This document shows, piece after piece, positions 44,287 through 62,200 of a DNA stretch of 64,000 bases (position 1 is the stretch's first letter; each line of letters starts with the position of its first letter). The notes beneath the pieces are model-generated. The model saw only the letters and a program-made list of their open reading frames with translations. It was not told where the DNA came from and ran no database searches. The translations under genes and the position numbers were made by a program. The stretch comes from Anianabacter salinae. Its GTDB lineage: Bacteria > Pseudomonadota > Alphaproteobacteria > Rhodobacterales > Rhodobacteraceae. The stretch lies in NCBI RefSeq assembly GCF_019061145.1, contig NZ_JAHQZS010000002.1:62001-126000 (forward strand), written 5' to 3'.

Positions 44287-44295
44287 CACGCGCAG

Positions 44296-45744
44296 ATGAC
44301 CCGCAACGTCCTGTCCGTCGCCTCGGAATGCGCGCCGCTTCTCAAGACCGGGGGGCTGGCCGATGTCGTCGGCGCGCTTCCCGGCGCGCTGGCCCGGCAC
44401 GGCTGGTCGATGCGGGTGCTGATGCCGGCTTACCGGGGGCTGCTGCCGCGTCTTGGCGGCGGCACCGCGCTGTGGTCGGGCGATCTGCAGGGCGGCAAGG
44501 CGCGCATCGTCGCGGCGGAGGCGTCCGGCACCCGGATGCTGCTGCTCGACGCGCCGCATCTCTATGACCGCGAGGGCGGCCCCTATGCCGGGGCCAAGGG
44601 CGATCACCCCGACAACCCGCAGCGCTTTGCCGCGCTGTGCAAGGCGGCACGGCTTGTCGCCGAGGGCGGCCTGTCGGATGGCTGGCAGCCCGAGATCCTG
44701 CACGCCCATGACTGGCAGGCGGGGCTTGCGCCCGCCTACCTGCGTTATGCCGGGGCGTCCCCGGTCAAGACCGTGATGACCGTGCACAACATCGCGTTCC
44801 AGGGCATCGCGGGCGCCGACCTTCTGGGGGGGCTGGGCCTGCCGGTGGCGGAATTCCACGCTGACGCGCTGGAATACTACGGCAACGTGTCGGCGCTGAA
44901 GGCCGGGCTGGTGACGGCGGATGCGATCACCACCGTGTCGCCGACCTATGCGTCCGAGTTGATGCGCCCGGAGTTCGGCATGGGGCTGGAAGGCATCATC
45001 TCGAAGCGCGCGGATTGCCTGCACGGCATCCTCAACGGCATCGACACCAGTGTCTGGTCGCCCGCCGCCGATCCCGAGATCGTCGCTTATGACGCCAGGA
45101 CGCTGAAGAAAAAGGCGCAGAACCGCGCGCGTCTTCTGGACGAGTTCGGCCTTGGCGATGTGCCGGGGCCGCTGGTCGTGGTGGTCAGCCGCCTGACTAC
45201 GCAGAAGGGCATCGACCTGATCCCCGAGGTTCTGCCCGAATTCATCCTGGCGGGCGGCGGTCTGGTCGTCCTCGGCTCCGGCGATGCCGGGCTGGAAGAG
45301 GCGATGCGCCGGGCGGCGGGCCGCTTCCCGGGCCGTGTCGGCGTCAAGATCGGCTATGACGAGGCCCTGTCGCACCGCATCTTCGCGGGCGGCGATGCGG
45401 TGCTGGTGCCCTCGCGGTTCGAACCTTGCGGGCTGACGCAGATGATGGGGCTCAGCTATGGCACCGTGCCCGTCGTGGCCGCGACGGGCGGGCTGGCCGA
45501 TACGGTGATCCACGCCAACCCGATGGCGCTTGCCGCGAAAGCGGCGACGGGGATCACCTTTCACCCGACAGACGCGACCGCCCTGGGCGATGCGCTGCGG
45601 CGGCTGGTGCAGCTTCATGGCGATACGGCGCAATGGCAGATGGTGCAGAAGAACGGCATGAAGCAGCCCGTCGACTGGAACGCCTCGTCCGCCGCCTATG
45701 CCCGTCTGTATGAAAGCCTGCTGTCCGAAAGTCCCGCCGCGTGA
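44296..45744 (+). CDS. glgA: glycogen synthase (GT5)
   Basis: GlgA extends alpha-1,4 glucan from ADP-glucose. The 482-residue protein has the ADP-glucose-binding KTGGLADVVGALPGAL at its N-terminus and the C-terminal PSRFEPCGLTQM block with TGGLADTV. Its end overlaps the glgX start by 4 bp (GTGA), so the two are translationally coupled. Confidence 0.97.
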   Translation: MTRNVLSVASECAPLLKTGGLADVVGALPGALARHGWSMRVLMPAYRGLLPRLGGGTALWSGDLQGGKARIVAAEASGTRMLLLDAPHLYDREGGPYAGAKGDHPDNPQRFAALCKAARLVAEGGLSDGWQPEILHAHDWQAGLAPAYLRYAGASPVKTVMTVHNIAFQGIAGADLLGGLGLPVAEFHADALEYYGNVSALKAGLVTADAITTVSPTYASELMRPEFGMGLEGIISKRADCLHGILNGIDTSVWSPAADPEIVAYDARTLKKKAQNRARLLDEFGLGDVPGPLVVVVSRLTTQKGIDLIPEVLPEFILAGGGLVVLGSGDAGLEEAMRRAAGRFPGRVGVKIGYDEALSHRIFAGGDAVLVPSRFEPCGLTQMMGLSYGTVPVVAATGGLADTVIHANPMALAAKAATGITFHPTDATALGDALRRLVQLHGDTAQWQMVQKNGMKQPVDWNASSAAYARLYESLLSESPAA

Positions 45745-47861
45745 ACGCAGTGCCGTCCGACATCAAATCCAGCCTCAAGCAGCATCCGCTGGCGTCCGGT
45801 CGCCCCGATCCGCTGGGCGCGACCTTTGATGGCGAGGGCGTGAACTTTGCCGTCTTCTCGGCCCATGCGCAGTTGGTGGAATTGTGCCTGTTCACCGAGG
45901 ATGGCCGCAAGGAGCGCGCGCGCATCCCGCTGACCGAGCGCGACGGCGATGTCTGGCACGTCTACGTGCGCGGCCTGACGCCCGGCACCCGTTATGGCTA
46001 CCGCGTGCACGGCCCCTACGAGCCCGAGGCGGGGCACCGGTTCAACCCCAACAAGCTGCTGCTGGACCCCTATGCCAAGAAGCTGGACGGACGCCTGAAA
46101 TGGTCGGACGCGCTGATGGGCTACAAGGTCGGCTCGAACCGGGCCGATCTGTCCTTCGACACCCGCGACAGCGCCTTTGCCATGCCGAAATCGGTCGTGG
46201 TGGACCCGTCCTTCAACTGGGGCAACGACACGCCCCCGCGCGTGCCGCGGTCGGAAACCGTGATCTACGAAGCGCACGCCAAGGGCCTGACCGAGACGCA
46301 CCCGCGCGTCGATCCGGCGGTTCAGGGCACCTACATGGGCGTCTGTTCGGAGCCGATGCTGGACCACCTGACGCGGCTGGGCGTCACCGCGGTCGAATTG
46401 CTGCCGGTGCATGCCTTTCTCGACGACCGGTTCCTGATCCAGAAGGGCTTGCGCAACTATTGGGGCTACCAGTCCATCGGCTTTTTCGCGCCCGAACCGC
46501 GTTACATGGCGCAGGGCGAGATCTGGGAGTTCCAGACGATGGTGCGCCGCCTTCATTCGGCGGGCATCGAGGTGATCCTCGACGTGGTCTACAACCACTC
46601 GGGCGAGGGCAACGAGATGGGGCCGACGCTGGCCTTTCGCGGGCTGGACAACGCCAGTTATTACCGGCTGCTCGATGGGCGCCATTACATCAACGACACC
46701 GGCACCGGGAACACGCTGAACGTCAAGCATCCCGCCGTGCTGCGAATGGTGATGGACAGTTTGCGCTACTGGGTCGAGGTGATGCACGTCGACGGCTTCC
46801 GGTTTGATCTTGCCACCACGCTGGCGCGCGAGGCGGACGGGTTCGATCCGCATGGCGGGTTTCTCGACACGATCCGGCAGGACCCTGTCCTGTCCCGCGT
46901 CAAGCTGATCGCCGAGCCGTGGGACATCGGGCCGGGCGGCTACCAGGTCGGAAGCTGGCCGCATCCGTTTCTTGAGTGGAACGACAAGTACCGAGACGGG
47001 GTTCGGCGGTTCTGGCGGGGCGGGGATCTTTTGACCTCGGACCTGTCCAAGCGCATCCTCGGCAGCGCCGACGAGTTCGACCATTCGGGCCGCGCCGCCA
47101 CCGCGTCGGTGAATTTCCTGACCGCGCATGACGGCTTCACGTTGCAGGATGTGGTCAGCTATTCCAAGAAGCACAACGCCGCCAACGGCGAGGACAACCG
47201 CGACGGCCATTCCGAGAATTTCTCGGACAATTTCGGCGTCGAGGGTCCGGCAGACGATCCCGGCATCACCGCGCGCCGCCTGCAGCGCAAGCGCAACATG
47301 CTGGCGACGCTGTTCCTGAGCCAGGGCACGCCGATGCTGCTGGCTGGCGACGAATTCGGCAACAGCCAGGGCGGCAACAACAACGCCTATGCCCAGGACA
47401 ACGAGACCGGCTGGCTGGACTGGTCGGACCCCGACGATGCGCTGACCGATTTCGTGGCCAAGCTGACGCGGATACGGCGCGAGCATCCAGTGCTAAGGCA
47501 ACGGCTGTTCCTGCACTCGCGCCCGCGCCGCAAGGACGGCATCCCCGACGTGGTCTGGCGCCTGCCGGACGGCACCGCGCCCGAGCCGCGCGACTGGCAC
47601 AATCCCGGCTGGAAAGCGCTGTGCGTCGAAATCCGCACCTCTTACGGGACGCCAGACTATGCCGCCTCGGATGACGTGATCTTCGCGGTGTTCAACGCAG
47701 GCGGTGAGGTCGAGGTGACCTTGCCGGTCCTTCCCGACGGCCTTGTGTGGGAAAACATCCTTGATACGGCGGAACCCGAAGCCGGGCCGAATTGCGTTAC
47801 ATCGGACATTGTGCGCGTGCCGTCCGAGGCCGTGCTGGCCTATGCGCGCACCCAAATCTGA
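45741..47861 (+). CDS. glgX: glycogen debranching enzyme
   Basis: GlgX hydrolyses alpha-1,6 branches of phosphorylase limit dextrin. The 706-residue GH13 protein shows EAHAKGLTETHP, catalytic DGFRFDLATTLAR (nucleophile), KLIAEPWDIG (acid) and TAHDGFTLQD. The start is GTG at 45741, inside the glgA stop overlap. It lies 13 bp before pgm. Confidence 0.96.
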   Translation: MNAVPSDIKSSLKQHPLASGRPDPLGATFDGEGVNFAVFSAHAQLVELCLFTEDGRKERARIPLTERDGDVWHVYVRGLTPGTRYGYRVHGPYEPEAGHRFNPNKLLLDPYAKKLDGRLKWSDALMGYKVGSNRADLSFDTRDSAFAMPKSVVVDPSFNWGNDTPPRVPRSETVIYEAHAKGLTETHPRVDPAVQGTYMGVCSEPMLDHLTRLGVTAVELLPVHAFLDDRFLIQKGLRNYWGYQSIGFFAPEPRYMAQGEIWEFQTMVRRLHSAGIEVILDVVYNHSGEGNEMGPTLAFRGLDNASYYRLLDGRHYINDTGTGNTLNVKHPAVLRMVMDSLRYWVEVMHVDGFRFDLATTLAREADGFDPHGGFLDTIRQDPVLSRVKLIAEPWDIGPGGYQVGSWPHPFLEWNDKYRDGVRRFWRGGDLLTSDLSKRILGSADEFDHSGRAATASVNFLTAHDGFTLQDVVSYSKKHNAANGEDNRDGHSENFSDNFGVEGPADDPGITARRLQRKRNMLATLFLSQGTPMLLAGDEFGNSQGGNNNAYAQDNETGWLDWSDPDDALTDFVAKLTRIRREHPVLRQRLFLHSRPRRKDGIPDVVWRLPDGTAPEPRDWHNPGWKALCVEIRTSYGTPDYAASDDVIFAVFNAGGEVEVTLPVLPDGLVWENILDTAEPEAGPNCVTSDIVRVPSEAVLAYARTQI

Positions 47862-47865
47862 CTAG

Positions 47866-49506
<1,641 letters not shown>

Positions 49507-49520
49507 AGGCGGGCGTCGGT

Positions 49521-49570
49521 GGGGGGCTCTGCCCCCCACACCCCCCGGAGGTATTTGTGGACCAAAGATG
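49521..49570 (+). repeat. GC-rich intergenic hairpin with interspersed motif
   Basis: GGGGGGC (49521-49527) and GCCCCCC (49531-49537) form a perfect 7-bp stem with a TCT loop, followed by CCGGAGGTATTTGTGGACCA. This matches a type of intergenic repeat common at gene ends in this group. Its last bases touch the amylosucrase start. Confidence 0.6.
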
Positions 49571-51472
49571 ACAGGTGCGGGCTTGGCAGAGACGGCTGTT
49601 GCGAGCGATCAGAGGCTTTTCGAGATGCGGCTGGCGCGCAGCCGGGACGATCTGTTCGGGATGCTGGAGCGGCTTTATGGCCAGCGCGGTGATTATGAGG
49701 CGTTTCGCGGCAAGCTGATGACGGCGCTGCGCAAGGCCTGGGAAGCGCGGCCGGAGGATCTGAAGTGGCTGGACCTTGCGCGCGATCTGGAGCCGGACTG
49801 GTTCCAGCGCGAGGGGCAGGTCGGCTATGTGTTCTACATCGACCGTTTCGCAGGGACGCTGAAGGGCGTGCTCGACCGGCTGGATTACCTTGAAGACCTC
49901 GGCGTCACCTACGTGCATTTCATGCCTTGCCTCAAGCCGCGCAAGGGCGACAGCGACGGTGGCTATTCGGTCGCCGACTATCGCAGCATCAATCCCGCCT
50001 ACGGCACGATGCAGGAGTTCGAGGAGGTGGCGGCGGCGCTGCGGGCGCGCGGCATCTCGGTCTGCATCGACATGGTCCTGAACCACACCGCGCGCGAACA
50101 TGCCTGGGCCCGCAAGGCGCGCAAGGGCGATGCGCGCTACCGCGACTATTACCTGACCTTTGAGACCGACAAGCTGCCGCGTGCCTATGAGGAATACCTC
50201 GTCGAGGTGTTTCCCGACACCGCGCCCGGCAGCTTTAGCTATGACGCTGATATGGGGCGCTGGGTCTGGACCACGTTCAACACCCATCAGTGGGATCTCA
50301 ACTGGGCGAACCCTGCCGTGTTCCTCGAAATGGTCGAGGTGATGCTGTATCTCGCCAATCGCGGCGCCGAGGTGCTGCGGCTGGATGCGGTCGCGTTCAT
50401 GTGGAAGCGCCTTGGCACACGCTGCCAGTCCGAACCCGAGGTGCACATGATCCTGCAGGCGCTGCGCGCCGCCTGCCGGATCGCCGCGCCCGCCGTGATC
50501 CACCTGGAAGAAGCGATCGTGTCGCCGGGCGAGATGATCCCATACCTTGGCGCGGGCGAGCATACCGGCAAGGAGGGCAACCTTGCCTATCACAACAGCC
50601 TGATGGTGCAGTTCTGGTCGGCGCTGGCGGCGCGCGACACCGCCCTGATGACCCATGTGATGCGCACGCATTTCCCGCCCGTGGTGCAGAACGCGACCTA
50701 TGCCACCTATATCCGCTGCCATGACGACATCGGCTGGGCGGTCACCGACGAGGACGCGGCGGCGGTGGGGCTGTCGGGGCCTGCGCACCGGGCCTTCCTG
50801 TCGGAATTCTACGAGGGCGGGTTTCCGGGCAGTTTCGCGAAGGGCGCCCTGTTTCAGGTCAACGAGGAGACCGGCGACAAGCGGATCTCGGGGTCTTTCG
50901 CGTCGCTGGCGGGGCTGGAGGCGGCGCTCGAGGCGGGCGATGTGCGCGGCGTCGATCTGGCGATCGACCGCATCCTGACGGGCCATGCGCTGATCGCGTC
51001 CTATGGCGGTATTCCGTTGATCTACATGGGGGACGAGCTGGGCCTTCTGAATGACTACGGCTATGCGGACGTGCCTGCCCATGCCCATGACAGCCGCTGG
51101 GTGCACCGCCCCGCGATGGACTGGGAGGCAGCGGCGGGCGCAGCGGCGGAAGGGACCGGCGTTGCGGCGCGCATCCACCGGGGCGTGCGGCAGATCATGG
51201 CGGCGCGGGCGCGTCTGGCGCCGCTGCATGGCGGGAACGCGACGCTGGTTCAGGACACCGGCAGCCGGGCGCTGTTCGCCTTCACCCGCGAGGCACCGGC
51301 GGGGGCGGTGCTGTGCCTGTTCAACTTCACCGAAGGGTGGCATTCGGTCTCGGCCGACTGGTGCCGCGACAATGGCGTGCGGCTGTTCCGGGACGGGTTG
51401 TCGGGCAGCGGTGTCGAGACCGGGAACGGGCGCGTCGCGCTGCCGCCCTATGCGCGGCTTTGGTTGATGTGA
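49568..51472 (+). CDS. amylosucrase (GH13_4)
   Basis: Amylosucrase transfers glucosyl units from sucrose to an alpha-1,4 glucan and releases fructose. The 634-residue protein shows YVFYIDRFAGTLKGV, VHFMPCLKPRKGDSDGGYSVADY, nucleophile Asp in VLRLDAVAFMW, acid Glu in VIHLEEAIVSPG and third carboxylate in CHDDIGW. Residues around the second half (DYGYADVPAHAHDSRWVHRP) match amylosucrases rather than general alpha-amylases. The first ATG (49568) has its nearest Shine-Dalgarno 16 bp away, inside a repeat, so the ATG at 49625 with AGAGG upstream is a serious alternative. It follows pgm by 61 bp. Confidence 0.88.
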   Translation: MTGAGLAETAVASDQRLFEMRLARSRDDLFGMLERLYGQRGDYEAFRGKLMTALRKAWEARPEDLKWLDLARDLEPDWFQREGQVGYVFYIDRFAGTLKGVLDRLDYLEDLGVTYVHFMPCLKPRKGDSDGGYSVADYRSINPAYGTMQEFEEVAAALRARGISVCIDMVLNHTAREHAWARKARKGDARYRDYYLTFETDKLPRAYEEYLVEVFPDTAPGSFSYDADMGRWVWTTFNTHQWDLNWANPAVFLEMVEVMLYLANRGAEVLRLDAVAFMWKRLGTRCQSEPEVHMILQALRAACRIAAPAVIHLEEAIVSPGEMIPYLGAGEHTGKEGNLAYHNSLMVQFWSALAARDTALMTHVMRTHFPPVVQNATYATYIRCHDDIGWAVTDEDAAAVGLSGPAHRAFLSEFYEGGFPGSFAKGALFQVNEETGDKRISGSFASLAGLEAALEAGDVRGVDLAIDRILTGHALIASYGGIPLIYMGDELGLLNDYGYADVPAHAHDSRWVHRPAMDWEAAAGAAAEGTGVAARIHRGVRQIMAARARLAPLHGGNATLVQDTGSRALFAFTREAPAGAVLCLFNFTEGWHSVSADWCRDNGVRLFRDGLSGSGVETGNGRVALPPYARLWLM

Positions 51473-51488: not shown

Positions 51489-51563
51489 GTGTCCCGCCCT
51501 ACAGGGCGGCGGATCCTTGATGCCTTTACCTGGGGAGGCGGGACAAGTCCCGCCCTACGGGCG
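51489..51563. repeat. paired GTCCCGCCCTAC repeats between convergent genes
   Basis: GTCCCGCCCTAC occurs at 51491-51502 and 51547-51558, each with flanking GGCGGG or GGGCGG that pairs with it into a hairpin. They sit between the amylosucrase and the convergent amidotransferase and look like a small REP-type element. Confidence 0.6.
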
Positions 51564-52265
51564 CTTGTGTTCGAAGAATGCGGCGATCCAGCGGGCCAGC
51601 GTGTCGGTGTCGGCGGGGTCGGCCAGCGAGGCGCGGGCGGCTGCGGTCACGTCCTCGGGCAGCTTGTCCTTCAGATGGTCGGTCAGCGCGGCGATGAAGC
51701 CGGGCGTCATCTCGGGGTGATACTCGGTGGTGAAGACGCTGTCCCCCAGCCGGAAGCCGCCGATGGCGCAGCCGGGCGCGGTAAGCACCACCTCGGCGCC
51801 GGGGGGCGCGCGCAGCACCTGCTCGCCGTGCGCCGCGTATTGCCGCACCGACGGGGGCGCACCGTCCATCCAGGGGGCGGGCGCGGTCACTTGCGTCTCG
51901 ACCGTGCCCAGCACGAAGGGGCCCGGGTTGTCGCCGACCGCGCCGCCGAGCGCCTGCGCGATGGCCTGATGGCCAAAGCAGGCCCCGAACAGCGGCACGC
52001 CTGCATTGTGTCCCTTGCGCAGCAGATCCATCAGCCGCAGCGTCCAGTCCTCGCCCGAGCGCACAGAGGCGGGGCTGCCGGTGACGATGACGCCGTCGAA
52101 GGACGAAAGATCGCCCGGAAACACGCCGTCCTTCACCGCGAAGACCTCGAACGTCCAGTCCGGGCGCAGGGGGGCGAGCAGGGCGCGCCACTTGTCGCCG
52201 TCGCGGGGATGGCGGCGCGCGAAATCGGACTCGTCGGTGTTCGCCATCAGGATCGCGATCTTCAT
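51555..52265 (-). CDS. class I glutamine amidotransferase-like hydrolase
   Basis: This 236-residue GATase1 protein resembles GMP synthase-type stand-alone amidotransferases. The nucleophile Cys is in FGACFGHQAIA, and the catalytic His/Glu pair in EYHPEM. It has no synthetase domain. The N-terminus MKIAILMANTDESDFA matches its family. It is divergent from the P450 and glutamine-synthetase-like genes. In the aniline and isopropylamine pathways comparable proteins handle gamma-glutamyl amides, so it may cleave such an amide here; that is inference. Confidence 0.82.
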   Translation of the reverse strand: MKIAILMANTDESDFARRHPRDGDKWRALLAPLRPDWTFEVFAVKDGVFPGDLSSFDGVIVTGSPASVRSGEDWTLRLMDLLRKGHNAGVPLFGACFGHQAIAQALGGAVGDNPGPFVLGTVETQVTAPAPWMDGAPPSVRQYAAHGEQVLRAPPGAEVVLTAPGCAIGGFRLGDSVFTTEYHPEMTPGFIAALTDHLKDKLPEDVTAAARASLADPADTDTLARWIAAFFEHKRP

Positions 52266-52288
52266 CGGGGCCTCCGGGTGAAAACGGG

Positions 52289-52318
52289 TTGCCAGCCCCC
52301 TGAATAGGGTGGTTAGAC
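52289..52318 (+). promoter_or_regulatory. candidate promoter for the P450 gene
   Basis: TTGCCA (52289-52294), an 18-bp spacer and TTAGAC (52313-52318) lie 30 bp before the P450 start codon. A palindromic operator follows immediately (52322-52339). The hexamers are only moderate matches. Confidence 0.4.
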
Positions 52319-52321
52319 TGA

Positions 52322-52339
52322 TCGTTGCAAGTGAAACGA
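52322..52339. promoter_or_regulatory. 18-bp palindrome, candidate operator shared by divergent genes
   Basis: TCGTTGCAAGTGAAACGA is self-complementary at 14 of 18 positions. It lies in the 82-bp region between the divergent amidotransferase and P450 genes, just past the candidate -10 element. A TetR- or GntR-like regulator could bind it; none is encoded beside it. Confidence 0.5.
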
Positions 52340-52347
52340 GTTTGCCG

Positions 52348-53604
52348 ATGACGCTCTGGACGCCCAACGACGACGGCCACGCCGACCTGACCAGCCACGA
52401 CGCCTTTGCGTCCGGCCCGCCGCACGCGACCTTTGCGCGGATGCGGGCCGAGGCGCCGGTTTGCTGGACCGGGTATGCAGGCGGGCAGGGGTTCTGGTCG
52501 GTCACGCGTCATGCCGACATCACCGCGATGCTGCGCGACTACGCGACGTTCTCCAGCGCGCGGGGCATCCGGATGGAGGACCAGACCTACGAGGAATACC
52601 TCGCGCGGCGCACGTTTCAGGAAACCGACCCGCCCGAGCATACCCATGTGCGCAAGAAGGTGATGCGCGCCTTCTCGCGCCCCGTGGTCGCCGGGTTCGA
52701 GGATGACATCCGCGCGTTGTCGGTCGATATTCTGGACTACGCGCTGCAAGACACCGAGTTCGACGCCACCAAGGCTATCGCGCGGGAATTGCCGATGCGG
52801 ATGCTGGGCCGCATTCTGGGCGTGCCCGAGGCCGATCTGCCCTGGCTGGTGCAGAAGGGCGACGCGCTGATCGCCAACACCGATCCCGATTTCACCGACC
52901 ATGTGCTCGACAAGCTGGACACCGACGAATTCCGCATGATGCCGTTCAACTCGCCTGCCGGGGCCGAGCTTTACGCCTATGCGCGCGAGTTGATGGCGGA
53001 CAAGGCGGCGCGCGGCGACACCGACGGCATCCTGCACATGATCCTTGCGCCTGATGAGGATGGCGAGACCATCAGCGAGACCGAGTTTCGCAACTTCTTT
53101 TGCCTTCTGGTCGCCGCAGGGAACGACACCACGCGCTATTCCATCGCCGCCGGGATGCAGGCGCTGGCGCGCCAGCCGGGGCTGCTGGACCAGGTCGCCA
53201 GCGGGGCGGTCGATGACACGATGGCCGACGAATTCATCCGCTGGGCCACGCCCGCTACCTATTTCCGCCGCACGGCCGCGCGCGATATTGAGGTGCATGG
53301 CCAGACGATCCGCGCGGGCGACAAGGTGCTCTTGTGGTTCGCTTCGGCCAACCGCGACGATGCGGTCTTTGAAGATCCCTTGACCGTCGATCCGGGGCGC
53401 AAGCCCAACCCGCACCTGTCCTTTGGGCAGGGCGGCCCGCATGTCTGCCTTGGCATGCACCTTGCGCGGCTCGAGGTGCGAGTGCTGTTTCAGGAATTGA
53501 CGAAACGTATTGCGGGGATCGAGATGGCGGGCACCGAGAAATTCCTGCGCTCCAACTTCGTGGGCGGGATCAAGTCGCTTCCCGTGCGCGTCACACTCCG
53601 CTGA
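52348..53604 (+). CDS. cytochrome P450 (CYP124/125-like heme motif)
   Basis: This 418-residue bacterial P450 has the I-helix segment LLVAAGNDTTRYS, with Asn where AG.ET/DT types have Gly-His or Gly-Glu, ExxR-region DEFIRWATP, and the heme loop FGQGGPHVCLGMHLARLE. The GGPHxCLG form is seen in CYP124/CYP125-type enzymes. Start at 52348 matches the family length. The glutamine-synthetase-like gene follows after 11 bp on the same strand, so they are probably co-transcribed. Redox partners are not encoded nearby. Confidence 0.9.
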   Translation: MTLWTPNDDGHADLTSHDAFASGPPHATFARMRAEAPVCWTGYAGGQGFWSVTRHADITAMLRDYATFSSARGIRMEDQTYEEYLARRTFQETDPPEHTHVRKKVMRAFSRPVVAGFEDDIRALSVDILDYALQDTEFDATKAIARELPMRMLGRILGVPEADLPWLVQKGDALIANTDPDFTDHVLDKLDTDEFRMMPFNSPAGAELYAYARELMADKAARGDTDGILHMILAPDEDGETISETEFRNFFCLLVAAGNDTTRYSIAAGMQALARQPGLLDQVASGAVDDTMADEFIRWATPATYFRRTAARDIEVHGQTIRAGDKVLLWFASANRDDAVFEDPLTVDPGRKPNPHLSFGQGGPHVCLGMHLARLEVRVLFQELTKRIAGIEMAGTEKFLRSNFVGGIKSLPVRVTLR

Positions 53605-53615
53605 AGGATGCCCCG

Positions 53616-54908
53616 ATGAAAGACCGCCTGCGCGCGATGTTCTGCGATCACCTGTCGATCCTGCGGGGGAAATACCTGCCGGGGAGCAAGATCGGCGATG
53701 GCGGCACGCGTTTTGCCCAGCCGACGTTCTCGGTGCATTACGACAAGGACCTGCTGCTCGATGCGCCCGGAACAGGCGTGCGGGGCGGCCTGCCCGACAT
53801 GGAACTGCGCTGGGCGGGGGCCGAGATCCGCGACGGGTGGGAGCCGTCGACGAAGGTGGTCCTGGGTGATCTGTTCGGTGCGGACGGCGCGCCTTTGCCG
53901 CTGTGTCCGCGCGGGGCGCTGAAGCGCGCGGTCGCCGGGTGGGAGGCCAAGGGCCTGACGCCCAAGATCGGGATTGAGCTGGAATGTTTCGCGCTTCAGG
54001 CGGACGAGCGCGGCGTGCTGCGCCCCTATGACACCCCCGGCGCCGTGGTTTATGGCACCGGCAACTTCACCGATCCGTTGCGCTTCACCGATGCGATCTG
54101 GGAACGCGCCGAGGATCTGGGCTTCGAGCTGGAGCTGATGACAGCGGAATACGATGCGCCCGAGTTCGAGTTCACGTTGAAGTTCGACGACGCGGTCAAG
54201 GCGGTGGACGACATTGTCCTGTTCCGCCAGATGGCGCGCGAGATCGCGCTGGATCACGGTATCCTGTTGTCCTTCATGCCGAAACCCGTGGCCGAAGCCG
54301 GGGGGGCGGGGATGCACATCAACCTGTCATTCACCGATGCCGAGGGGCGCAATGCCGTCTCGACCGGGCCCGTCGGCGGGCCGGAAAACATGAGCGATCT
54401 GGCAAAGGGCTGCATCGCGGGCTGGATGCGGCATCACAAGGGCATGGCCGGGCTGATCGCGCCCACGGTCAACAGCTACCAACGGCTGCAACCTGCGGCC
54501 TTGTCAGGCTACTGGTGCAACTGGGGCGGCGACCACCGCGGCGTCACGGCGCGGGTGTCGGGCGAGGGCGGCGCCAAGGCGCGACTGGAACACCGGATGG
54601 CCGACGCCTCGGCCAATCCCTACACCGCTGTCGCCACGGTGCTTCAGGCGGCGCGTCTTGGGGTCGAGGGCGGCTATGATCTGCCGCCGATGGAAGGCGG
54701 CGATTGTTTCGACCGCACCGATGCCAAGGTCAGCGTCGCCGAAGACCTGCGCCGCGCCATCGACGATCTGGAGGCGGATACCGCCCTGTCGCAGGCCGTC
54801 GGCGCCGATCTGGTGGCGCATCATGCGTTCATGAAGCGCAAGGAGGTGCGCAAGACCCGCGAGATGGAAGGCGATGCGCTGCGCGATTTCTACGTTCACT
54901 TCATCTGA
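53616..54908 (+). CDS. glutamine-synthetase-family ligase (PuuA/gamma-glutamylamide-like)
   Basis: This 430-residue protein has the glutamine synthetase catalytic fold: IGIELECFALQ (metal Glu), TAEYDAPEFEF (metal/substrate Glu), GGAGMHINLSF (HxN), APTVNSYQRL and GGDHRGVTARV, and ARLEHRMADASANPY. The tyrosine adenylylation segment of true GlnA is not evident, and it resembles gamma-glutamylamine ligases such as PuuA. It probably joins glutamate to an amine. It follows a P450 by 11 bp and is opposite a glutaminase-like gene, which suggests an amine catabolic module. Confidence 0.86.
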   Translation: MKDRLRAMFCDHLSILRGKYLPGSKIGDGGTRFAQPTFSVHYDKDLLLDAPGTGVRGGLPDMELRWAGAEIRDGWEPSTKVVLGDLFGADGAPLPLCPRGALKRAVAGWEAKGLTPKIGIELECFALQADERGVLRPYDTPGAVVYGTGNFTDPLRFTDAIWERAEDLGFELELMTAEYDAPEFEFTLKFDDAVKAVDDIVLFRQMAREIALDHGILLSFMPKPVAEAGGAGMHINLSFTDAEGRNAVSTGPVGGPENMSDLAKGCIAGWMRHHKGMAGLIAPTVNSYQRLQPAALSGYWCNWGGDHRGVTARVSGEGGAKARLEHRMADASANPYTAVATVLQAARLGVEGGYDLPPMEGGDCFDRTDAKVSVAEDLRRAIDDLEADTALSQAVGADLVAHHAFMKRKEVRKTREMEGDALRDFYVHFI

Positions 54909-55029: not shown

Positions 55030-56412
55030 ATGTCTGTGCGAGTAACACTTTCCAGCCTGTCGTTGGTATTGGCCCTTTTCACACCAGTCACGGTCGGCGC
55101 GGAACCCTTGGCGAGCGCCGTGGCTGCGGCAGTCACGTCGAACCCGGCGGCCCGCGCCGCCGAGGCGGACGTGCGCGCCTCGGTTGCCGACCTCGCCCGC
55201 CTGCGGTCCGAATACGAGCCGACGGTCAACCTGTTCGGCGAAGTCGGCGGCCAGATTGTCGACAACCCGTCCTCGCTTGCCCCGAACGAGAACAACCGGC
55301 TCAAGCTGGCGCGCCAGATCGGCGTCGGCGTCGAGTTCACCCTGTTCGACGGCTATCGTCGCTCGAACCTTGTCTACCGAAATTCCGTGCGCATCGACGG
55401 CGCGATCTATCGCCGCCTCGACGCTGCCGAAACGCTCGCCCTGACGGCGGTCGAGGCGTATATCGACGTTGTGCGCCTGCATCGGCTTGTCGCGCTGGCG
55501 CGTGACAATGTGGTGCAGCATCAACAGCTTGCGCGGCAGGTCCGCGATCTGGTCGATGGCGGGCGACTTCCGGCGAGCGACGGGTTCCTTGTCGACGACC
55601 GCATTCTTGCTGCGCAAAGCGCCGTGCTGGATGTCGAGCGCTCGCTGTCCGACGCCAAGGCGCGGTACGAGCGTGTCGTCGGTCATTTGCCATCGGGCGC
55701 GATGTCGGTGCCGTACCCGCGCGGTGTGCCGCGCCACCTTGACGCCTACCTGTCCGAGGCTGTCGCCGCATCCAACAAGGTTGCCGCCGCCGGGGCGCGG
55801 GCGCGAGAGCCGCTGTATGACAAGAACGTCGCGCTGGCGCGCCGTTTGCCCCGTGTGACGCTGAACGCAGGCGTGGCCCACGGGATCGATCGCAGCGGGT
55901 CTTTCGGCTCGGACACCGACGCCTTCGTCGGGCTGCGGTTCAACTGGCAGCTCTATGGCGGCGGGCGCGATGCCGAGGAAGCCTATTTCGACGCCGAGGC
56001 CGCACAGGCCGCCTATGAGGCAGAGACCATCGCCCGCGAGGTGCGCGAGATCGCGGCGCGGGCGTGGAACGGCTATCAGACGGCAATCGAGCGGCGCGAT
56101 CTTCTGGCGCGGCAGGTGCGCGCCAACCAGCAGATCGTTCGGCAGTACCGCGATGAGGTCGAGGCGGCCAAGCGCAGCCTGATCGACGTTCTCGAGGCCG
56201 AGCGCACGCTGTTCAACATCCGTTTCCAGGAGATCAGCGCCGACTCTGCCGTGACCTTCGGCGCCTACCGCCTGCTGGCCGCGAAAAGCGCGCTGGCCGA
56301 TCACTTCGGGCTGTCGCGGGCTGCCGTGGCACTGGCGCCGGGCTTTGAGGACCGCGCGCAGGGTGCCCCCACCGGCGCCGTCTTCAACACATCGGTTCCG
56401 CCGCTCGAATGA
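55030..56412 (+). CDS. TolC-family outer membrane protein of a type I secretion system
   Basis: This 460-residue protein has a signal peptide (cleavage near VGAEP) and two OEP/TolC repeats with long coiled-coil helices (for example DRILAAQSAVLDVERSLSDAKA and REVREIAARAWNGYQTAIERRD). The TolC-type DVLEAERTLFN motif is near the C-terminus. It forms the outer membrane duct. Its stop overlaps the start of the ABC transporter gene (ATGA). The start at 55030 is the ATG before the signal peptide. Confidence 0.88.
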   Translation: MSVRVTLSSLSLVLALFTPVTVGAEPLASAVAAAVTSNPAARAAEADVRASVADLARLRSEYEPTVNLFGEVGGQIVDNPSSLAPNENNRLKLARQIGVGVEFTLFDGYRRSNLVYRNSVRIDGAIYRRLDAAETLALTAVEAYIDVVRLHRLVALARDNVVQHQQLARQVRDLVDGGRLPASDGFLVDDRILAAQSAVLDVERSLSDAKARYERVVGHLPSGAMSVPYPRGVPRHLDAYLSEAVAASNKVAAAGARAREPLYDKNVALARRLPRVTLNAGVAHGIDRSGSFGSDTDAFVGLRFNWQLYGGGRDAEEAYFDAEAAQAAYEAETIAREVREIAARAWNGYQTAIERRDLLARQVRANQQIVRQYRDEVEAAKRSLIDVLEAERTLFNIRFQEISADSAVTFGAYRLLAAKSALADHFGLSRAAVALAPGFEDRAQGAPTGAVFNTSVPPLE

Positions 56413-58619
56413 CCAGCGATCCCTCCGCCCCCGTCGCGGCCGCCACGACATCGGGCGGACCTGCGGTGCTGGGATCGGAGAGCGAGGTTTCCCCCGATAC
56501 GCCACGCGGGCTGGCGTTTGCCGTGATCGGCTGGATGGCGGCGCATCACGGGCACCCTTTCACCGCGTCCGCCGTCGCCGCGCGGGTGCCGACCGATTTC
56601 GCGGCCCATGACCGAGGCGCGCTGATCCGGGGGCTGGGGGCGGTGGGCCTGCGCGCCCGCACGGTCGAGCGGGATCTGGCCCGCCTGGACCCCGCCGTGT
56701 TCCCCGTCATCGCCATCACCCGCAAAGGTCAGCCGCTGATCGTCGCGGGCCGGGCCGAGGGGCGGCGCATGTGGCGCATCGTCGATCCCTCCGAGGGCGC
56801 GCACGCGCAGGACATCGGCCAGCGCGCGTTGCGCCGCAGGCTGAGCGGCCCCTTGATCCTTGCCGCGCCCGAGGGCGACGGGGCACCGCGACTGTCCACC
56901 GATCCGGGCGGCCGGGCGCGCCACTGGTTCTGGGGGCCGTTCTGGGGCGGATGGGACGCCTGGGCGCAGGTGATCCTTGCGGTGCTGGTGGTGAACCTTC
57001 TGAACCTCGCGCTGCCGCTGTTCGTGATGAACGTCTACGACCGGGTGATCCCGAACCTGGCCTTCGTGACCCTCACGACGCTGGCCATCGGCGTCGGCAT
57101 CGCCATCGCGCTTGATTTCTGCGTGCGGATGATCCGCTCGGTGGTGCTGGAACGGGTGACGCGGCGGGTGGACCTGCGCGTCGGCGCTGCGCTGTTCCGG
57201 CAGGCGATGTCGGTGGAACTGCTCTCGCGCCCCGGCGGCGCGGCGGGCATCGCCAGCACGATCCGCGATTTCGACACGGTGCGAGATTTCTTTGCCTCGG
57301 CCAGCTTCGTCGCGGTGATCGACCTTGCCTTCGTCGGCATCTTCCTTGGCGTCTTGTGGTACATCGTCGGCCCGCTGGCGCTGGTGCCCGCGCTGGCGGT
57401 GCCGGTCGTGCTGCTGCTGGGCCTGATCGCGCAGATGCCGATGCGGCGCAGCGTCGACAAGGGGCAGGCGGTGGCGACCCGGCGTCACACCGTGCTGGTG
57501 GAGTCGCTGATGGGCATCGGCACGATCAAGTCACTGGGTGCCGAGCCCGCGATGCAGCGCGAATGGGAGAGTGCCGTCGCCGCCTCGGCCCGGCTGGGCG
57601 GGCAGACACGGTTCTGGTCGAACGTCGCGCTGAACGGCACGCAGCTGGTGCAGCAGGCGGTCAGCGTCGGGATCATCGTATGGGGCGTGTTCCTGGTGTC
57701 GGACGGGCGCATCACCATCGGCGCGCTGATCGCCGCCAACATCCTTGCGGGCCGCGTTCTGGCGCCGCTGGCCAACATCGCGCAGACGCTGTTCCGCGCG
57801 CATTACGCGGTGCGCTCGATGCGGGCGATCACCGATTTCATGGCGCTGCCGGTGGAAGGCGGAGGAGCCGTGCGCAGCGCGGCGCGCGTCCGGCAGGGCG
57901 CGGTCGAGCTGAAGGGTGTCAAATACACCTATCCCGGCGCCAAGGTGCCCGCGCTGGACGGCGTGGACCTGTCCGTGTCCCCGGGCGAGTGCGTCGCGCT
58001 GGTTGGCCCGGTCGGGTCGGGCAAGACCACCACGGGCATGCTGTTCAACGGCCTCTTGCGCCCGACCGAGGGCGTGGTGCTGGTCGACGGGCAAGAGCTG
58101 TCACATTACGATCCGGCGGAACTGCGCGCCGGGATCGGCTATCTGCCGCAGGATGCAGAGCTGTTCACCGGCACCGTGCGCGAGAACCTGTCGATCGGGC
58201 GCCCCGGCGCCTCGGACGACGATCTGGCGCGCGCGCTGTGGTATGCGGGCATGGACCGCTTCGTGGCCGAGCATCCCGACGGGCTGGGCGCGCATGTCGG
58301 CGAAAAGGGCAACCGGCTGTCAGGCGGCCAGCGGCAGGGCCTGTCGCTTGCGAGGATCGTGCTGCGCCGTCCGCGCCTGATGTTCCTCGACGAGCCGACC
58401 AACGCGATGGACCAGCGGATGGAGGCGACTGTGACGGAACGCCTGCGCACGCTGCATACAGAGGGGCTTGGCCTTGTGTTGTGCACGCACCGCCAGTCGC
58501 TTGCCGCCATCGCGCCGCGCCTTGTCGTGTTCGACCGGGGCCGCAAGCTGCTGGACGGGCCCTATGCCGAGGTCGTGCAGCGGCTTCAGGGCGCCGCCAA
58601 ATCAATCGAGGCGCAGTGA
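56409..58619 (+). CDS. type I secretion ABC transporter (ATPase plus permease)
   Basis: This 736-residue exporter has a peptidase-C39-like N-terminal domain that lacks the catalytic Cys (GWMAAHHGHPFTASA) and so probably only docks substrate, as in LapB-type systems. A six-helix membrane domain and an ATP-binding cassette follow, with Walker A GPVGSGKTT, signature LSGGQRQGLSLA and Walker B LMFLDEPTNAMD. It exports an unfolded substrate through the TolC duct. It overlaps the tolC-like gene by 4 bp and its stop overlaps the hlyD-like start by one base (TGATG). Confidence 0.92.
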   Translation: MTSDPSAPVAAATTSGGPAVLGSESEVSPDTPRGLAFAVIGWMAAHHGHPFTASAVAARVPTDFAAHDRGALIRGLGAVGLRARTVERDLARLDPAVFPVIAITRKGQPLIVAGRAEGRRMWRIVDPSEGAHAQDIGQRALRRRLSGPLILAAPEGDGAPRLSTDPGGRARHWFWGPFWGGWDAWAQVILAVLVVNLLNLALPLFVMNVYDRVIPNLAFVTLTTLAIGVGIAIALDFCVRMIRSVVLERVTRRVDLRVGAALFRQAMSVELLSRPGGAAGIASTIRDFDTVRDFFASASFVAVIDLAFVGIFLGVLWYIVGPLALVPALAVPVVLLLGLIAQMPMRRSVDKGQAVATRRHTVLVESLMGIGTIKSLGAEPAMQREWESAVAASARLGGQTRFWSNVALNGTQLVQQAVSVGIIVWGVFLVSDGRITIGALIAANILAGRVLAPLANIAQTLFRAHYAVRSMRAITDFMALPVEGGGAVRSAARVRQGAVELKGVKYTYPGAKVPALDGVDLSVSPGECVALVGPVGSGKTTTGMLFNGLLRPTEGVVLVDGQELSHYDPAELRAGIGYLPQDAELFTGTVRENLSIGRPGASDDDLARALWYAGMDRFVAEHPDGLGAHVGEKGNRLSGGQRQGLSLARIVLRRPRLMFLDEPTNAMDQRMEATVTERLRTLHTEGLGLVLCTHRQSLAAIAPRLVVFDRGRKLLDGPYAEVVQRLQGAAKSIEAQ

Positions 58620-59941
58620 TGTTCGGACGCGGACCGGAAGCGGAGTTCCTCAACGACATCGCCGCCGCAGAGGCGGGGACGGCGGGGCGCGGCGCATGGG
58701 CGTTTCTGTTGCTGATCGTCGGCGGGCTGGCCGCGTTCGGCTGGTGGGCGGCGACCTATGAGATCGAGGAATTGACGCGCGGCATGGGCCGGGTGATCCC
58801 GTCGTCGCAGGTGCAGATCGTGCAGGCCCCCGAGGGCGGTGTCGTCCGTGCCATCGCGGTGGCCGAGGGCGACACGGTGGCGCAAGGCGATGTGCTCATC
58901 ACCGTCGACGACACCACGGTTCTGGCCGAGCAGGGCGAGTTCCTTGAACGCCGCGCTGCGCTGGAGGCCGAGCGCATCCGCCTGTCCGCCGAGGCCGAGG
59001 AGGCGGACGCGCCCGACTTTCCCGCCGCGCTGCGCGCGCAGGTGCCCCGTGCCGTCGCCGCCGAGGCCGAGGTTTTTGCCTCGCGCCGCCGCCAGCTTGC
59101 GCAAGAGATCGAGGTTCTGGAGAACCGGCTCGACCAGCGCCGTGCGGACCTGCAGGAGTTGCAGGCGACCCGCGCGCGCGCCGAGGCGGTGCTTGGCCCC
59201 CTGCGCGACGAGATCACCCTGACCGAGGACATGGCCACGCGCGGCGTCGTGCCCGAGATCGAGCTGTTGCGCCTGCGTGCACGGCTTGCCGAACTGACCG
59301 GCGATCTTGCGGTGACCGACGCCGCGCTGCCCCGCACCCGCGCCGCCATTTCCGAGGCCGAGAACGAGATCACCGCCGCGCGGTCGGGCTATGTGCTGGC
59401 CGCGCGGGAACGCCTTGCGCGGCTGGAGCTGGAGCTTGCGGTGGTGCAAGAGGCGCTGTCGGCGGCGACCGAGCGCGTCACCCGCACCGAGATCCGCGCG
59501 CCGGTGGACGGGGTGGTGAACCGTCTTGCCATCTCGACGCTGGGCGCCGTGGTGCAGGCCGGATCGCAACTGGCCGAGATCGTGCCCGCCGATGACGGGC
59601 TTCTGATCGAGGCGGACCTGCGCCCGCAGGACGTTGCCTTCATCGGCCCCGGAGAGCCTGCGTCGGTCACGATCACCGCCTATGATCCGCTGATCTATGG
59701 CAAGTTGTCCGGCGAGGTGCTGCGCATCGGTGCCAATTCCATCGACACGGGCGAAGGCGAGACATTCTTTCGCGTCGTGGTGCGAACCGACCGCCAGACG
59801 CTTGGCACCGAGGCGAGCCCGCTGCCGATCATCGCGGGCATGGTGGCGACGGTCGAGATCCAGACGGGCCGCCGGACGGTGCTGTCTTATCTGGCCAAGC
59901 CCATCCTGCGCGCAAGGGCCGAGGCGTTCCGCGAACGCTAG
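58619..59941 (+). CDS. HlyD-family membrane fusion (adaptor) protein
   Basis: This 440-residue periplasmic adaptor links the ABC exporter and outer membrane duct. One N-terminal membrane helix (WAFLLLIVGGLAAFGWWAA) precedes the lipoyl-type GMGRVIPSSQVQIVQAPEGGVV, a long coiled-coil (EIEVLENRLDQRRADLQEL) and the beta-barrel segment RAPVDGVVNRLAIST. It has the family length and order. It completes the T1SS operon. The next gene is convergent. Confidence 0.92.
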   Translation: MFGRGPEAEFLNDIAAAEAGTAGRGAWAFLLLIVGGLAAFGWWAATYEIEELTRGMGRVIPSSQVQIVQAPEGGVVRAIAVAEGDTVAQGDVLITVDDTTVLAEQGEFLERRAALEAERIRLSAEAEEADAPDFPAALRAQVPRAVAAEAEVFASRRRQLAQEIEVLENRLDQRRADLQELQATRARAEAVLGPLRDEITLTEDMATRGVVPEIELLRLRARLAELTGDLAVTDAALPRTRAAISEAENEITAARSGYVLAARERLARLELELAVVQEALSAATERVTRTEIRAPVDGVVNRLAISTLGAVVQAGSQLAEIVPADDGLLIEADLRPQDVAFIGPGEPASVTITAYDPLIYGKLSGEVLRIGANSIDTGEGETFFRVVVRTDRQTLGTEASPLPIIAGMVATVEIQTGRRTVLSYLAKPILRARAEAFRER

Positions 59942-59950
59942 CCTTCCTTG

Positions 59951-62200
59951 CTACTTAGACGTCGCCGTATAGACGCCGTCCCAGTCCGGCCCCGGCGGCA
60001 CGGCGCGGAATTCGGCGATCCGGGCGCGGTAGAGATCGAGGTATCCCGTCAGCCCCATCGCCTCGGCGCCTGCCGTTTCCATCCCGCACATGGCAGCTTC
60101 GGCGGCGTCCCAGCGCTGATCGCGATAGGCGGCCAGCATGTCGCGGTTGGTTTCCAGCAGGCTGACGGTCGCCGGATCGGCCATCAGTGTGTGATCCCCG
60201 AGCAGGGCGAAGATGCGCACCGGTTCCTGCTTGCCCTTCACCCGCAGAAGATCGAGCTCCATCACCGCCATGTCATGCTCGACTTCGCGCGCGGTCGACT
60301 CTCCCAGCACGATGCCGACGCCGTAGGGCTTTGATTGCCCCTCCAGCCGCGAGGCAAGGTTCACCGTGTCGCCAAGCGCGGTATAGTCAAAGCGGGTGTC
60401 GGACCCCATGTTGCCCACGACACAGGAGCCGGTGTTCAGCCCGACACCGACATCAATGCGGTGCACCGTCTCGCCGTCAGTGGCCTCGGCGAGGCGGAGC
60501 GTGTTCAGCTCTTCGACCGCCTTGCGCATGGCGATCGCGGCGCGGCATCCGGCGCGGGCGTGCTGCGGGATGTCCAGCGGCGCGTTCCAGAACGCCATGA
60601 CCGCATCGCCCATGAACTTGTCGATGGTGCCGCCCTCGTCGAGGATCGCGTCCGACAGCACGGTGAGAAAGCGGTTCATCAGCACGGTCAGCCCCTGCGG
60701 GTCGTCCTTGAAGCTTTCCGAGATCGCCGTGAACCCGCGCACGTCGCTGAACAGGAGCGTCAGCTCTTTCGTCTCGCCGCCAAGGCGCAGGCTGCCGGGG
60801 TTGTCCTGCAGCCGCTCGATCAGCGCGGGCGAGACGTATTGTCCGAAGGCGCCCCGGATCTCGCGGCGCTGGCGTTCCTCGCGCAGGTAGTTCGCCGTCG
60901 TCATGATGCCTGCGATCAGCAACGTCGCCAGCACCGGATAGGTCGGGTCGATCAGCATCCGCGCACGCTCGAACGCGAGCCATGTTGTCGTGACATAGGC
61001 CGCCAGCACCAGCAGCGTCGACAGGATCACCCAGCGCGCCGCCATGTTGGGCACCAGCAGGACGGTCAGAAGGCCAAGGATCGCGGTGGTCAGCAACTCG
61101 ACCGAGATGGCGTAGTTCGGGCGATCCAAGAGCGTGCTGGACAGGATGTTCTCCAGGAGTTGCGCATGCACCTCGACCCCGGCCATGGCGACGCCAAGAG
61201 GCGTGGCGCGGTAATCCTCGAGGCCGATGGCGGAGGTGCCGACAAGGACAAGATGCCCGGCCAGCCGCCCCTCGGGCAGTCGGTTCAGGATCACGTCGGC
61301 GGCGCTGACATAGCGCGCGCGCGCGCTGTGCGACAGGTAGGGCCGCACCGACCCGGTGGCATCGGTGCGGATCAGCTGGCGGGCCACCACGATCCCGTCC
61401 ACGCCCGCCTCGTTGCTGCGGATGGCAAAGCTTTGCCCGCCGGTCGCGACGCGCAGCAACTCGGGCGTCAGGCCAAGGCGCAGCGTCTCGCCCGCCAGCA
61501 TCACCAGCGGCACGCGGCGGTAGACGCCGTCAGTGTCGGGCCGGACCGAGAACACACCGCGCCCGGCAGCGGCGGCTTCGAGGGCTGGCAGGTTCTCGAC
61601 CAGATCGGGAAAGCGCGAGAGGAACGGACGCGGATCGGGACCTAGCAGCGCGTGCGGCACATCACGCGGCACGGCGCTTTGCCCGCCCGCCCCTGCGACG
61701 CGGATGCTGGTCTGGCCGAGGATCACGCGGCCCCGCCCGATCGCTTCGGCAAAGATGTCGTCGTTCGACGGCAGGCCCGACAGCGCGTCGCGGATCGCAG
61801 GGTCGAGCGCCTCGTTGTCGCTTGCGATCAGGCCGGGGGACAGCCGGTCGGGTTCCGAGAAAAGCACGTCGAAGGCGATCGCGGCGGCCCCGCCCGCAGT
61901 GGCGTTGTCGACAAGCTGCGCCAGCCTGGTGCGCGGCCACGGCCATTGCCCCAACTCGGCGATAGAGGCGTCGTCGATGTCGATGATCGTCACCGGGGCG
62001 GGCGCCACCTCGCGCGGCTTGACGCGCTGGAAGGTGTCGAAGGCAAGGTTGCGCAGGATCGAAACCGGCGTCGGGTCGAGGATGCGAATCGTCAGGAGCA
62101 ATGCCAGCATGACCAGCCCGGCCATCCGGCTCCAGCCGTTCGAAATCAGATTTCGGCCCACGCGACCGTCCCTCGCCCATCCATTTACCCAGCGTTTCAC
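59951..62200 (-). CDS. CHASE2-domain class III adenylate/guanylate cyclase
   Basis: This ~749-residue membrane protein begins with a membrane segment (MAGLVMLALLLTIRIL) and an extracytoplasmic CHASE2 domain (PAPVTIIDIDDASIAELGQWPWPR). Three more helices follow at about 350-430 and a class III cyclase domain covers the last ~200 residues, with LFSDVRGFTAISE (metal Asp), GDAVMAFW (metal Asp), GVGLNTGSCVVGNMG and the nucleotide-binding FDYTALGDTVNLASRL. The domain order is sensor-membrane-cyclase. The GTG at 62200 is my best start (a TTG at 62254 and the ATG at 62125 are alternatives); no strong ribosome binding site is seen. It is divergent from the adhesin gene and convergent with hlyD-like. 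Confidence 0.85.
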   Translation of the reverse strand: MKRWVNGWARDGRVGRNLISNGWSRMAGLVMLALLLTIRILDPTPVSILRNLAFDTFQRVKPREVAPAPVTIIDIDDASIAELGQWPWPRTRLAQLVDNATAGGAAAIAFDVLFSEPDRLSPGLIASDNEALDPAIRDALSGLPSNDDIFAEAIGRGRVILGQTSIRVAGAGGQSAVPRDVPHALLGPDPRPFLSRFPDLVENLPALEAAAAGRGVFSVRPDTDGVYRRVPLVMLAGETLRLGLTPELLRVATGGQSFAIRSNEAGVDGIVVARQLIRTDATGSVRPYLSHSARARYVSAADVILNRLPEGRLAGHLVLVGTSAIGLEDYRATPLGVAMAGVEVHAQLLENILSSTLLDRPNYAISVELLTTAILGLLTVLLVPNMAARWVILSTLLVLAAYVTTTWLAFERARMLIDPTYPVLATLLIAGIMTTANYLREERQRREIRGAFGQYVSPALIERLQDNPGSLRLGGETKELTLLFSDVRGFTAISESFKDDPQGLTVLMNRFLTVLSDAILDEGGTIDKFMGDAVMAFWNAPLDIPQHARAGCRAAIAMRKAVEELNTLRLAEATDGETVHRIDVGVGLNTGSCVVGNMGSDTRFDYTALGDTVNLASRLEGQSKPYGVGIVLGESTAREVEHDMAVMELDLLRVKGKQEPVRIFALLGDHTLMADPATVSLLETNRDMLAAYRDQRWDAAEAAMCGMETAGAEAMGLTGYLDLYRARIAEFRAVPPGPDWDGVYTATSK

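Follow-up and report, generated by a model that had tools for sequence, protein, structure and literature searches.

The ligase, P450 and amidotransferase genes of Anianabacter salinae

The window analysed here is a 64,000-nucleotide stretch of the Anianabacter salinae genome (positions 62001-126000 of contig C8; 3.64-Mb genome, G000 in our set, completeness 95%). It contains a trio of genes encoding a class I glutamine amidotransferase (GATase)-like protein, a cytochrome P450 and a glutamine-synthetase-family ligase (GSL), which are the subject of this study. The GATase gene (51555-52265, 236 aa; PF00117, 55.2 bits) is on the minus strand, and the P450 gene (52348-53604, 418 aa; PF00067, 74.6 bits) and the ligase gene (53616-54908, 430 aa; PF00120, 234.7 bits) are on the plus strand; all three matches are over the Pfam cut-offs. 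The start of the P450 was taken as the conserved ATG, and an alternative GTG is found at 52309. The P450 and ligase genes are separated by 11 bp, and the GATase gene diverges from them across an intergenic region of 82 bp (52266-52347). This layout is as described in the original prediction, a reading of the DNA letters that had proposed a glutamyl-dependent oxidation route with a P450 in the place of the oxygenase.

The ligase did not score as a known type of glutamine synthetase. Its scores were 150.9 and 194.9 against the GlnA models TIGR00653 (cut-off 429.15) and TIGR03105 (cut-off 469.6), and 178 against the gamma-glutamylputrescine synthetase model (cut-off 650). It was under the cut-off of every glutamine synthetase or gamma-glutamylputrescine synthetase model that it matched, type III glutamine synthetase included. 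The same genome encodes a GlnA-like protein and two other members of the glutamine synthetase family elsewhere. Alignment with this GlnA-like protein indicated that the ligase retains the GlxE, E..(P/Q).(F/H)E, MH, SY.RL and E.R positions, that Leu replaces the Glu of the GFEAP motif and that the FDGSS motif is gone. We take this Glu and the FDGSS motif to belong to the ammonium site of glutamine synthetase; without them the ligase differs from a true glutamine synthetase, in support of the original prediction. Such a loss would be expected of the GoaS class named in PMC11335346, and the window ligase combines a glutamine synthetase catalytic domain with the loss of the ammonium-site residues of GlnA. 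As judged from its sequence, the ligase is proposed to be a gamma-glutamyl arylethylamide synthetase of the GoaS type.

The P450 has the expected motifs: Cys367, an AGNDTT stretch in the I-helix and the ExxR pair Glu295/Arg298. Its closest solved chains are CYP125MRCA, CYP126 and CYP124. Five residues of the B-C loop (R75, D78, Q79, R87 and R88) are at least 97% conserved among 75 related P450s, including that of the window; our guess is that they hold the glutamyl carboxylates. The enzyme is proposed to act as an oxygenase on a gamma-glutamyl arylethylamide and is presumably of the ferredoxin-dependent type. The catalytic triad of the GATase is intact (Cys96, His183 and Glu185), and its best solved relative is the plant gamma-glutamyl peptidase 1 (9k7i, E 4.3e-18). 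The proposed role of this protein is that of a gamma-glutamyl-amide hydrolase freeing the oxidised amine. By analogy with aniline degradation, it could alternatively serve to empty excess gamma-glutamyl amide.

The trio is conserved in the family

Conservation of the trio was surveyed in 198 genomes of the family, one per genus (E 1e-60 for the ligase, 1e-80 for the P450 and 1e-40 for the GATase). The ligase was found in 44 genomes, the P450 in 43 and the GATase in 38. Ligase and P450 genes were adjacent on the same strand in 40 of the 42 genomes with both, and the complete trio was adjacent in 31 of the 198. In 29 of these the GATase gene is divergent; in the other two (G024 and G164) it lies downstream on the same strand. 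These adjacencies argue that the arrangement is not due to chance. Linkage in related genomes was among the checks proposed along with the original prediction, and it held.

Six more genomes (G033, G045, G072, G123, G139 and G146) carry a related version of the trio, with a GATase 29-35% identical encoded before the P450 and the ligase on the same strand. One genome (G087) has the ligase and the GATase and lacks the P450. A reshuffled set was seen in loci L048 and L049, where the GATase gene is downstream of the ligase gene on the same strand, with Tct genes upstream and IclR and aminotransferase genes downstream.

The trio is associated with homoprotocatechuate genes

On contig C8 of A. salinae, positions 130540-141202 encode a class III aminotransferase, IclR, TctCBA, HpaF, MarR, HpaE, HpaD, an HpaG-like protein and HpaH. 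This cluster starts 13.6 kb and ends 24.3 kb past the ligase gene. HpaE (753.1, cut-off 638.35), HpaD (415.9, cut-off 321.4) and HpaH (379.3, cut-off 351.5) all exceeded the curated cut-offs (locus L115), and the nearest solved relatives of the aminotransferase are omega-transaminases. A decarboxylase gene is found away from the trio on the same contig (271921-273294). HpaB (PF03241) was not found in this genome at E 1e-20, the assembly being 95% complete.

The hpa cluster is followed by genes for a copper ATPase, HmgA, a FAH protein, a metallohydrolase, a FAD monooxygenase over the cut-off for the PRK08132 subfamily and a 67-aa protein (L115:15309-19900 and L116:1-3556). The genes for the metallohydrolase, the FAD monooxygenase and the 67-aa protein recur next to the decarboxylase, HpaI-like, GntR and trio genes in five loci (L045, L050, L055, L059 and L060).

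Across the family, the lower pathway tracked the ligase. With each genus genome counted as independent and kinship ignored, HpaD was found in 37 of the 44 ligase carriers and 28 of the 154 other genomes (p 1e-15), HpaH in 40 and 39 (p 2e-15), the decarboxylase in 39 and 54 (p 1e-10) and the aminotransferase in 42 and 44 (p 2e-16), respectively. Physical proximity was compared in 41 carriers, leaving out G069, G154 and G180, which have neither HpaD nor HpaH, and placing G145 by the position of its P450. HpaD (or HpaH in four genomes) was encoded within 25 kb of the ligase in 10 of these 41 (binomial p 4e-10).

We clustered the proteins encoded around the trio. The 77 distinct loci used came from 40 regions that were fetched and 41 named contigs, after removal of 4 duplicates. 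Genes in the fetched GC-rich loci were called by codon-usage scoring and tblastn, and some were still missed, for example in L073 and L163. A 2Fe-2S ferredoxin gene follows the ligase gene in 50 of 76 relatives' loci (tblastn, within 400 bp) and was recovered in 47 loci by clustering. The other recurring neighbours were GntR (41 of the 77 loci), IclR (29), a class III aminotransferase (28), aldehyde dehydrogenase (27), TctC (22), HpaD (13), HpaI-like (11) and HpaG-like (11) proteins, HpaH (9) and an aromatic amino acid decarboxylase (9). At least one of the hpa, decarboxylase and aminotransferase genes was present in 39 of the 77 loci, and homogentisate-type genes adjoin 13.

In G072 (locus L067), genes for IclR, aminotransferase, TctB, TctA, TctC, GATase, P450, ligase, HpaF, HpaE, HpaD, decarboxylase, HpaG-like protein and HpaH follow one another on one strand. 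HpaH, HpaD and HpaE of this locus exceeded the curated cut-offs and HpaF that of PF02962; the HpaG-like protein exceeded only that of the general PF01557, and the decarboxylase is nearest DOPA and tyrosine decarboxylases. A contiguous 17-kb block of G003 comprises the trio together with ferredoxin, aminotransferase, IclR, TctCBA, aldehyde dehydrogenase and hpa genes.

Related gene sets are found beyond the family

A survey of 385 genomes of the class, in which up to 4 candidates were scored per genome so that the counts are lower bounds, found the ligase in at least nine: A. salinae itself and eight genomes from four other families. Ring-cleavage or HpaH-type genes were present in six of the eight stretches from outside the family. 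Four of these six (the f37 loci) have a same-strand run with genes for the P450, the ligase, a ferredoxin and a ferredoxin reductase, joined in three by a decarboxylase gene. The run also encodes an HpaE-like dehydrogenase, a LigB-type dioxygenase, an HpaG-like protein and an ADC-family protein; no GATase match was found in the four loci. In L159, the sole f37 locus profiled, HpaD_Fe (131.4, cut-off 315.95) and HpaE (512.4, cut-off 638.35) were the best models, under their cut-offs. HpaD and HpaH are encoded in L163 and L166. The two were not found in the stretches of L164 and L165, the latter of which has a decarboxylase gene.

Pairs of ligase and P450 genes are also carried by plasmids. On a Streptomyces canus plasmid the ligase (35%) and the P450 (41%) are encoded beside an annotated 3,4-dihydroxyphenylacetate 2,3-dioxygenase, and on a Novosphingobium EMRT-2 plasmid the P450 (55%) and the ligase (50%) are encoded beside ring-cleavage and FAH-family genes; both pairs adjoin ring-cleavage, FAH-family and aldehyde dehydrogenase genes. 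S. lunaelactis has the ligase without the P450, and an annotated gamma-glutamyl-GABA hydrolase family protein is encoded near its ring-cleavage-type genes. A Sagittula stellata plasmid (L133:5920-9227) carries genes for the ligase, GATase, P450 (41%) and an AraC regulator in a setting of other aromatic catabolism genes; it may represent a further substrate branch of this module. GATase and P450 matches lie close together on Novosphingobium humi plasmids and seem like those of S. stellata.

Proposed pathway and alternatives

The interpretation starts from what was observed: the genes, their linkage, the intact catalytic motifs, the loss of the ammonium-site residues, and the fact that aminotransferase, transporter, decarboxylase and hpa genes co-occur and are co-located with the trio. 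The link between the trio and the homoprotocatechuate pathway is well supported. At the level of sequence, the data also favour a glutamyl-dependent oxidation in which a P450 takes the place of the oxygenase. We propose, with about even confidence, that the trio serves to oxidise an arylethylamine, most likely tyramine, in glutamyl-tagged form and so feeds the homoprotocatechuate route. The scheme set out below is the simplest in which all the linked genes have a part. From the gene content we infer the identity of the amine, the reaction of the P450, the order of the steps and the role of the GATase. The decarboxylase would provide the arylethylamine, most likely tyramine, to which the ligase would join L-glutamate. 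The P450, fed by a ferredoxin, would then oxidise the aromatic ring of the tagged amine, taking it to the 3,4-dihydroxy (dopamine) level, and the GATase would hydrolyse the gamma-glutamyl amide and give back glutamate. Dopamine would be transaminated by the aminotransferase and the aldehyde oxidised by the aldehyde dehydrogenase to 3,4-dihydroxyphenylacetate (homoprotocatechuate), the ring of which would be cleaved by the Hpa enzymes encoded downstream. The GATase step is placed before the transamination because the aminotransferase needs a free amino group. Our preference for tyramine has two reasons: one hydroxylation of its ring is enough to produce the 3,4-dihydroxy pattern required by HpaD, and most carriers are without HpaB. 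A bolder version, to which we lean less, is that of a widespread bacterial route from tyrosine or tyramine through gamma-glutamyl-tyramine, gamma-glutamyl-dopamine and dopamine to homoprotocatechuate, in which the P450 would hydroxylate tyramine to dopamine only while it is tethered to glutamate and no 4-hydroxyphenylacetate 3-hydroxylase would be used.

Several observations weigh against this proposal. HpaB was neither enriched nor depleted among ligase carriers (5 of 44, versus 14 of 154 others; p 0.77). Among the 82 genomes with HpaD or HpaH, it was found in 5 of the 41 with the trio and 8 of the 41 without, and 33 of the 82 have neither the trio nor HpaB. These figures give no statistical indication of the P450 taking over from HpaB; that claim was tested and not borne out. 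HpaB is in this respect a control: the lower pathway tracks the trio, and the classical hydroxylase shows no association with it, positive or negative. A true HpaB (TIGR02309, 544.7 over 480.2) is moreover encoded in L164, where it follows a related trio at a distance of a few genes, which speaks against a simple replacement. The decarboxylase encoded beside the P450 in the f37 locus L159 is nearest a DOPA decarboxylase (672 bits), so that dopamine could be obtained there without any P450. The cluster of aminotransferase, Tct and hpa genes is found without the trio too, and 37 of the 77 loci showed no hpa, decarboxylase, aminotransferase or homogentisate-type genes in stretches of 5-20 kb, for some of which the gene calls are incomplete. 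The trio of Ruegeria TM1040 lies near paaABCD; together with the S. stellata plasmid, this indicates that the context of the module is not always homoprotocatechuate. Finally, the window trio has no adjoining ferredoxin gene; ferredoxins at 46% and 44% are encoded elsewhere in the genome.

Part of this evidence would also fit a different arylethylamine chemistry, in which the P450 O-demethylates gamma-glutamyl-3-methoxytyramine or hydroxylates gamma-glutamyl-phenethylamine and the product goes to the aminotransferase and a homoprotocatechuate or homogentisate route. The gene neighbourhood fixes the product class only, and the homogentisate-type genes adjoining 13 loci as well as the A. salinae hpa cluster, the HpaB beside the related trio of L164 and the DOPA-type decarboxylase of f37 all agree with such a chemistry. 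It is nevertheless less likely: the absence of HpaB from 39 of the 44 carriers suggests that for most of them the product should already be 3,4-dihydroxylated, phenethylamine would require two hydroxylations, and nothing was found that indicates methoxy compounds. A lack of joint function, the ligase being a glutamine synthetase or a polyamine ligase and the three genes mere neighbours, would suit the family assignment taken alone. With the ligase and P450 genes adjacent in 40 of 42 genomes, the ammonium-site motifs lost and three other glutamine synthetase family genes in the genome, we give it hardly any weight.

The remaining alternatives come from known glutamyl-dependent systems. In the isopropylamine (Ipu) pathway, as described in PMC6776027, a glutamyl ligase and a P450 with ferredoxin and reductase act together with an amidotransferase proposed to free the oxidised amine. 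The pathway is that of Pseudomonas sp. KIE171 and Paenarthrobacter aurescens TC1. As in the window, a glutamine-synthetase-family ligase, a P450 and an amidotransferase are encoded together on plasmid pTC1 of the latter, which carries genes for GATase, P450, ferredoxin, ferredoxin reductase and ipuC. The A. salinae trio could, on this model, oxidise a small alkylamine, its proximity to aromatic genes being a by-product of the clustering of catabolic genes. This is improbable given the strong association with hpa, decarboxylase and aminotransferase genes. The proteins are also not close orthologues, with 31% identity to IpuC and 28% to the Ipu P450; the window GATase has no meaningful match to the adjacent pTC1 GATase, which is of another type, and 27% identity over 135 aa to a second one. 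The two systems also differ in that the Ipu substrate is aliphatic and that the pTC1 stretch examined showed no link to homoprotocatechuate genes. As to the ferredoxin and reductase genes of the Ipu cluster, neither adjoins the window trio; a ferredoxin gene follows the ligase gene in 50 of 76 relatives' loci, and both occur in the f37 loci. The original prediction had instead drawn a parallel with aniline catabolism. For the aniline and 1-naphthylamine systems, PMC11335346 describes a glutamine-synthetase-like ligase making the gamma-glutamyl arylamide needed by the oxygenase and a GATase-like protein hydrolysing it. The parallel is an analogy only: glutamylation followed by oxidation with a GATase-like partner is the order of chemistry proposed here too. 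AtdA1-A5 and NpaA1-A5, however, use a Rieske dioxygenase on an arylamine and come with catechol or naphthalene lower genes, whereas the window trio has a P450 and a link to homoprotocatechuate. No Rieske dioxygenase or reductase was found among the window neighbours, which are glycogen and type I secretion genes, and no recurrent aniline-type catechol ortho or meta cluster or Rieske component adjoined the trio in the clustered loci; the neighbours there point to arylethylamine and homoprotocatechuate catabolism. Degradation of an aniline-type amine, in which the P450 would stand in for the Rieske dioxygenase, is therefore very improbable and was rejected as the leading explanation because the linked lower pathway serves 3,4-dihydroxyphenylacetate, with its two-carbon side chain.

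The divergent gap and the surrounding genes

The near-palindrome noted earlier between the divergent genes did not hold up. Shuffling gave an inverted repeat as good as or better than the best one of the gap (52322-52339) in 130 of 500 cases, which is chance level. The palindrome is not conserved in relatives and was rejected as an operator. An AT-rich element, TTTACATATTTA, was found with at most 2 mismatches in 52 of 65 divergent gaps, the window gap being counted among the 65, and is missing from that of the window. Its second half was seen to resemble TTARTATA. Since a GntR gene is present in the stretch for 37 of the 52 loci with the element, the element may be a GntR operator; no GntR gene adjoins the window trio. 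The window gap and the IclR-TctC gap of the same genome have no common 8-mer.

The trio is flanked on one side by a glycogen block (43015-51472), in which ADP-glucose pyrophosphorylase, glycogen synthase, debranching enzyme, phosphoglucomutase and a glycosidase-like protein were named by eye. On the other side (55069-62125) are genes for a TolC-like outer membrane protein, an LssB-type ABC transporter (TIGR03375, over cut-off) and an HlyD adaptor (TIGR01843, over cut-off), followed on the minus strand by a CHASE2-like/adenylate-cyclase-like protein, recognised by eye. The nearest relative (G126, L034) has the same glycogen block next to its trio, and the aminotransferase-IclR-Tct set follows at a distance of a few kb. 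This comparison suggests that, in the window, the type I secretion genes were inserted into an older cluster.

Relation to known pathways and significance

The original prediction considered the type of route undescribed. This is too strong in view of PMC6776027: the Ipu pathway already brings together a ligase and an amidotransferase with a P450 and its ferredoxin and reductase. The design is thus known from isopropylamine degradation, and it is its use on tyramine-type amines that looks new. No paper on a glutamyl-tyramine P450 route came up in word searches of an open-access library, subscription papers being mostly outside their reach.

Putrescine use by PuuA and PuuD likewise involves glutamylation and later removal of glutamate. 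The window ligase is far under the gamma-glutamylputrescine synthetase cut-off, and the window GATase belongs to PF00117 and not to the PuuD family named for S. lunaelactis. Of the 4-hydroxyphenylacetate pathway (HpaBC, HpaD-I), HpaF, HpaE, HpaD, HpaG and HpaH are encoded downstream of the trio and HpaB was not found. In contrast to the HpaBC route, the trio and the aminotransferase would supply homoprotocatechuate from an amine.

The genes of the trio are currently annotated merely as 'glutamine synthetase', 'P450' and 'amidotransferase'. If the proposal is true, the glutamyl tag would serve not just small alkylamines and anilines but tyramine-type amines as well, and a P450 with its substrate set by a removable tag would be useful for making catechols. 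It would also suggest a catecholamine as a catabolic intermediate in bacteria, and about one in five of the sampled genera of the family (44 of 198) would carry a hidden entry of biogenic aromatic amines into ring cleavage.

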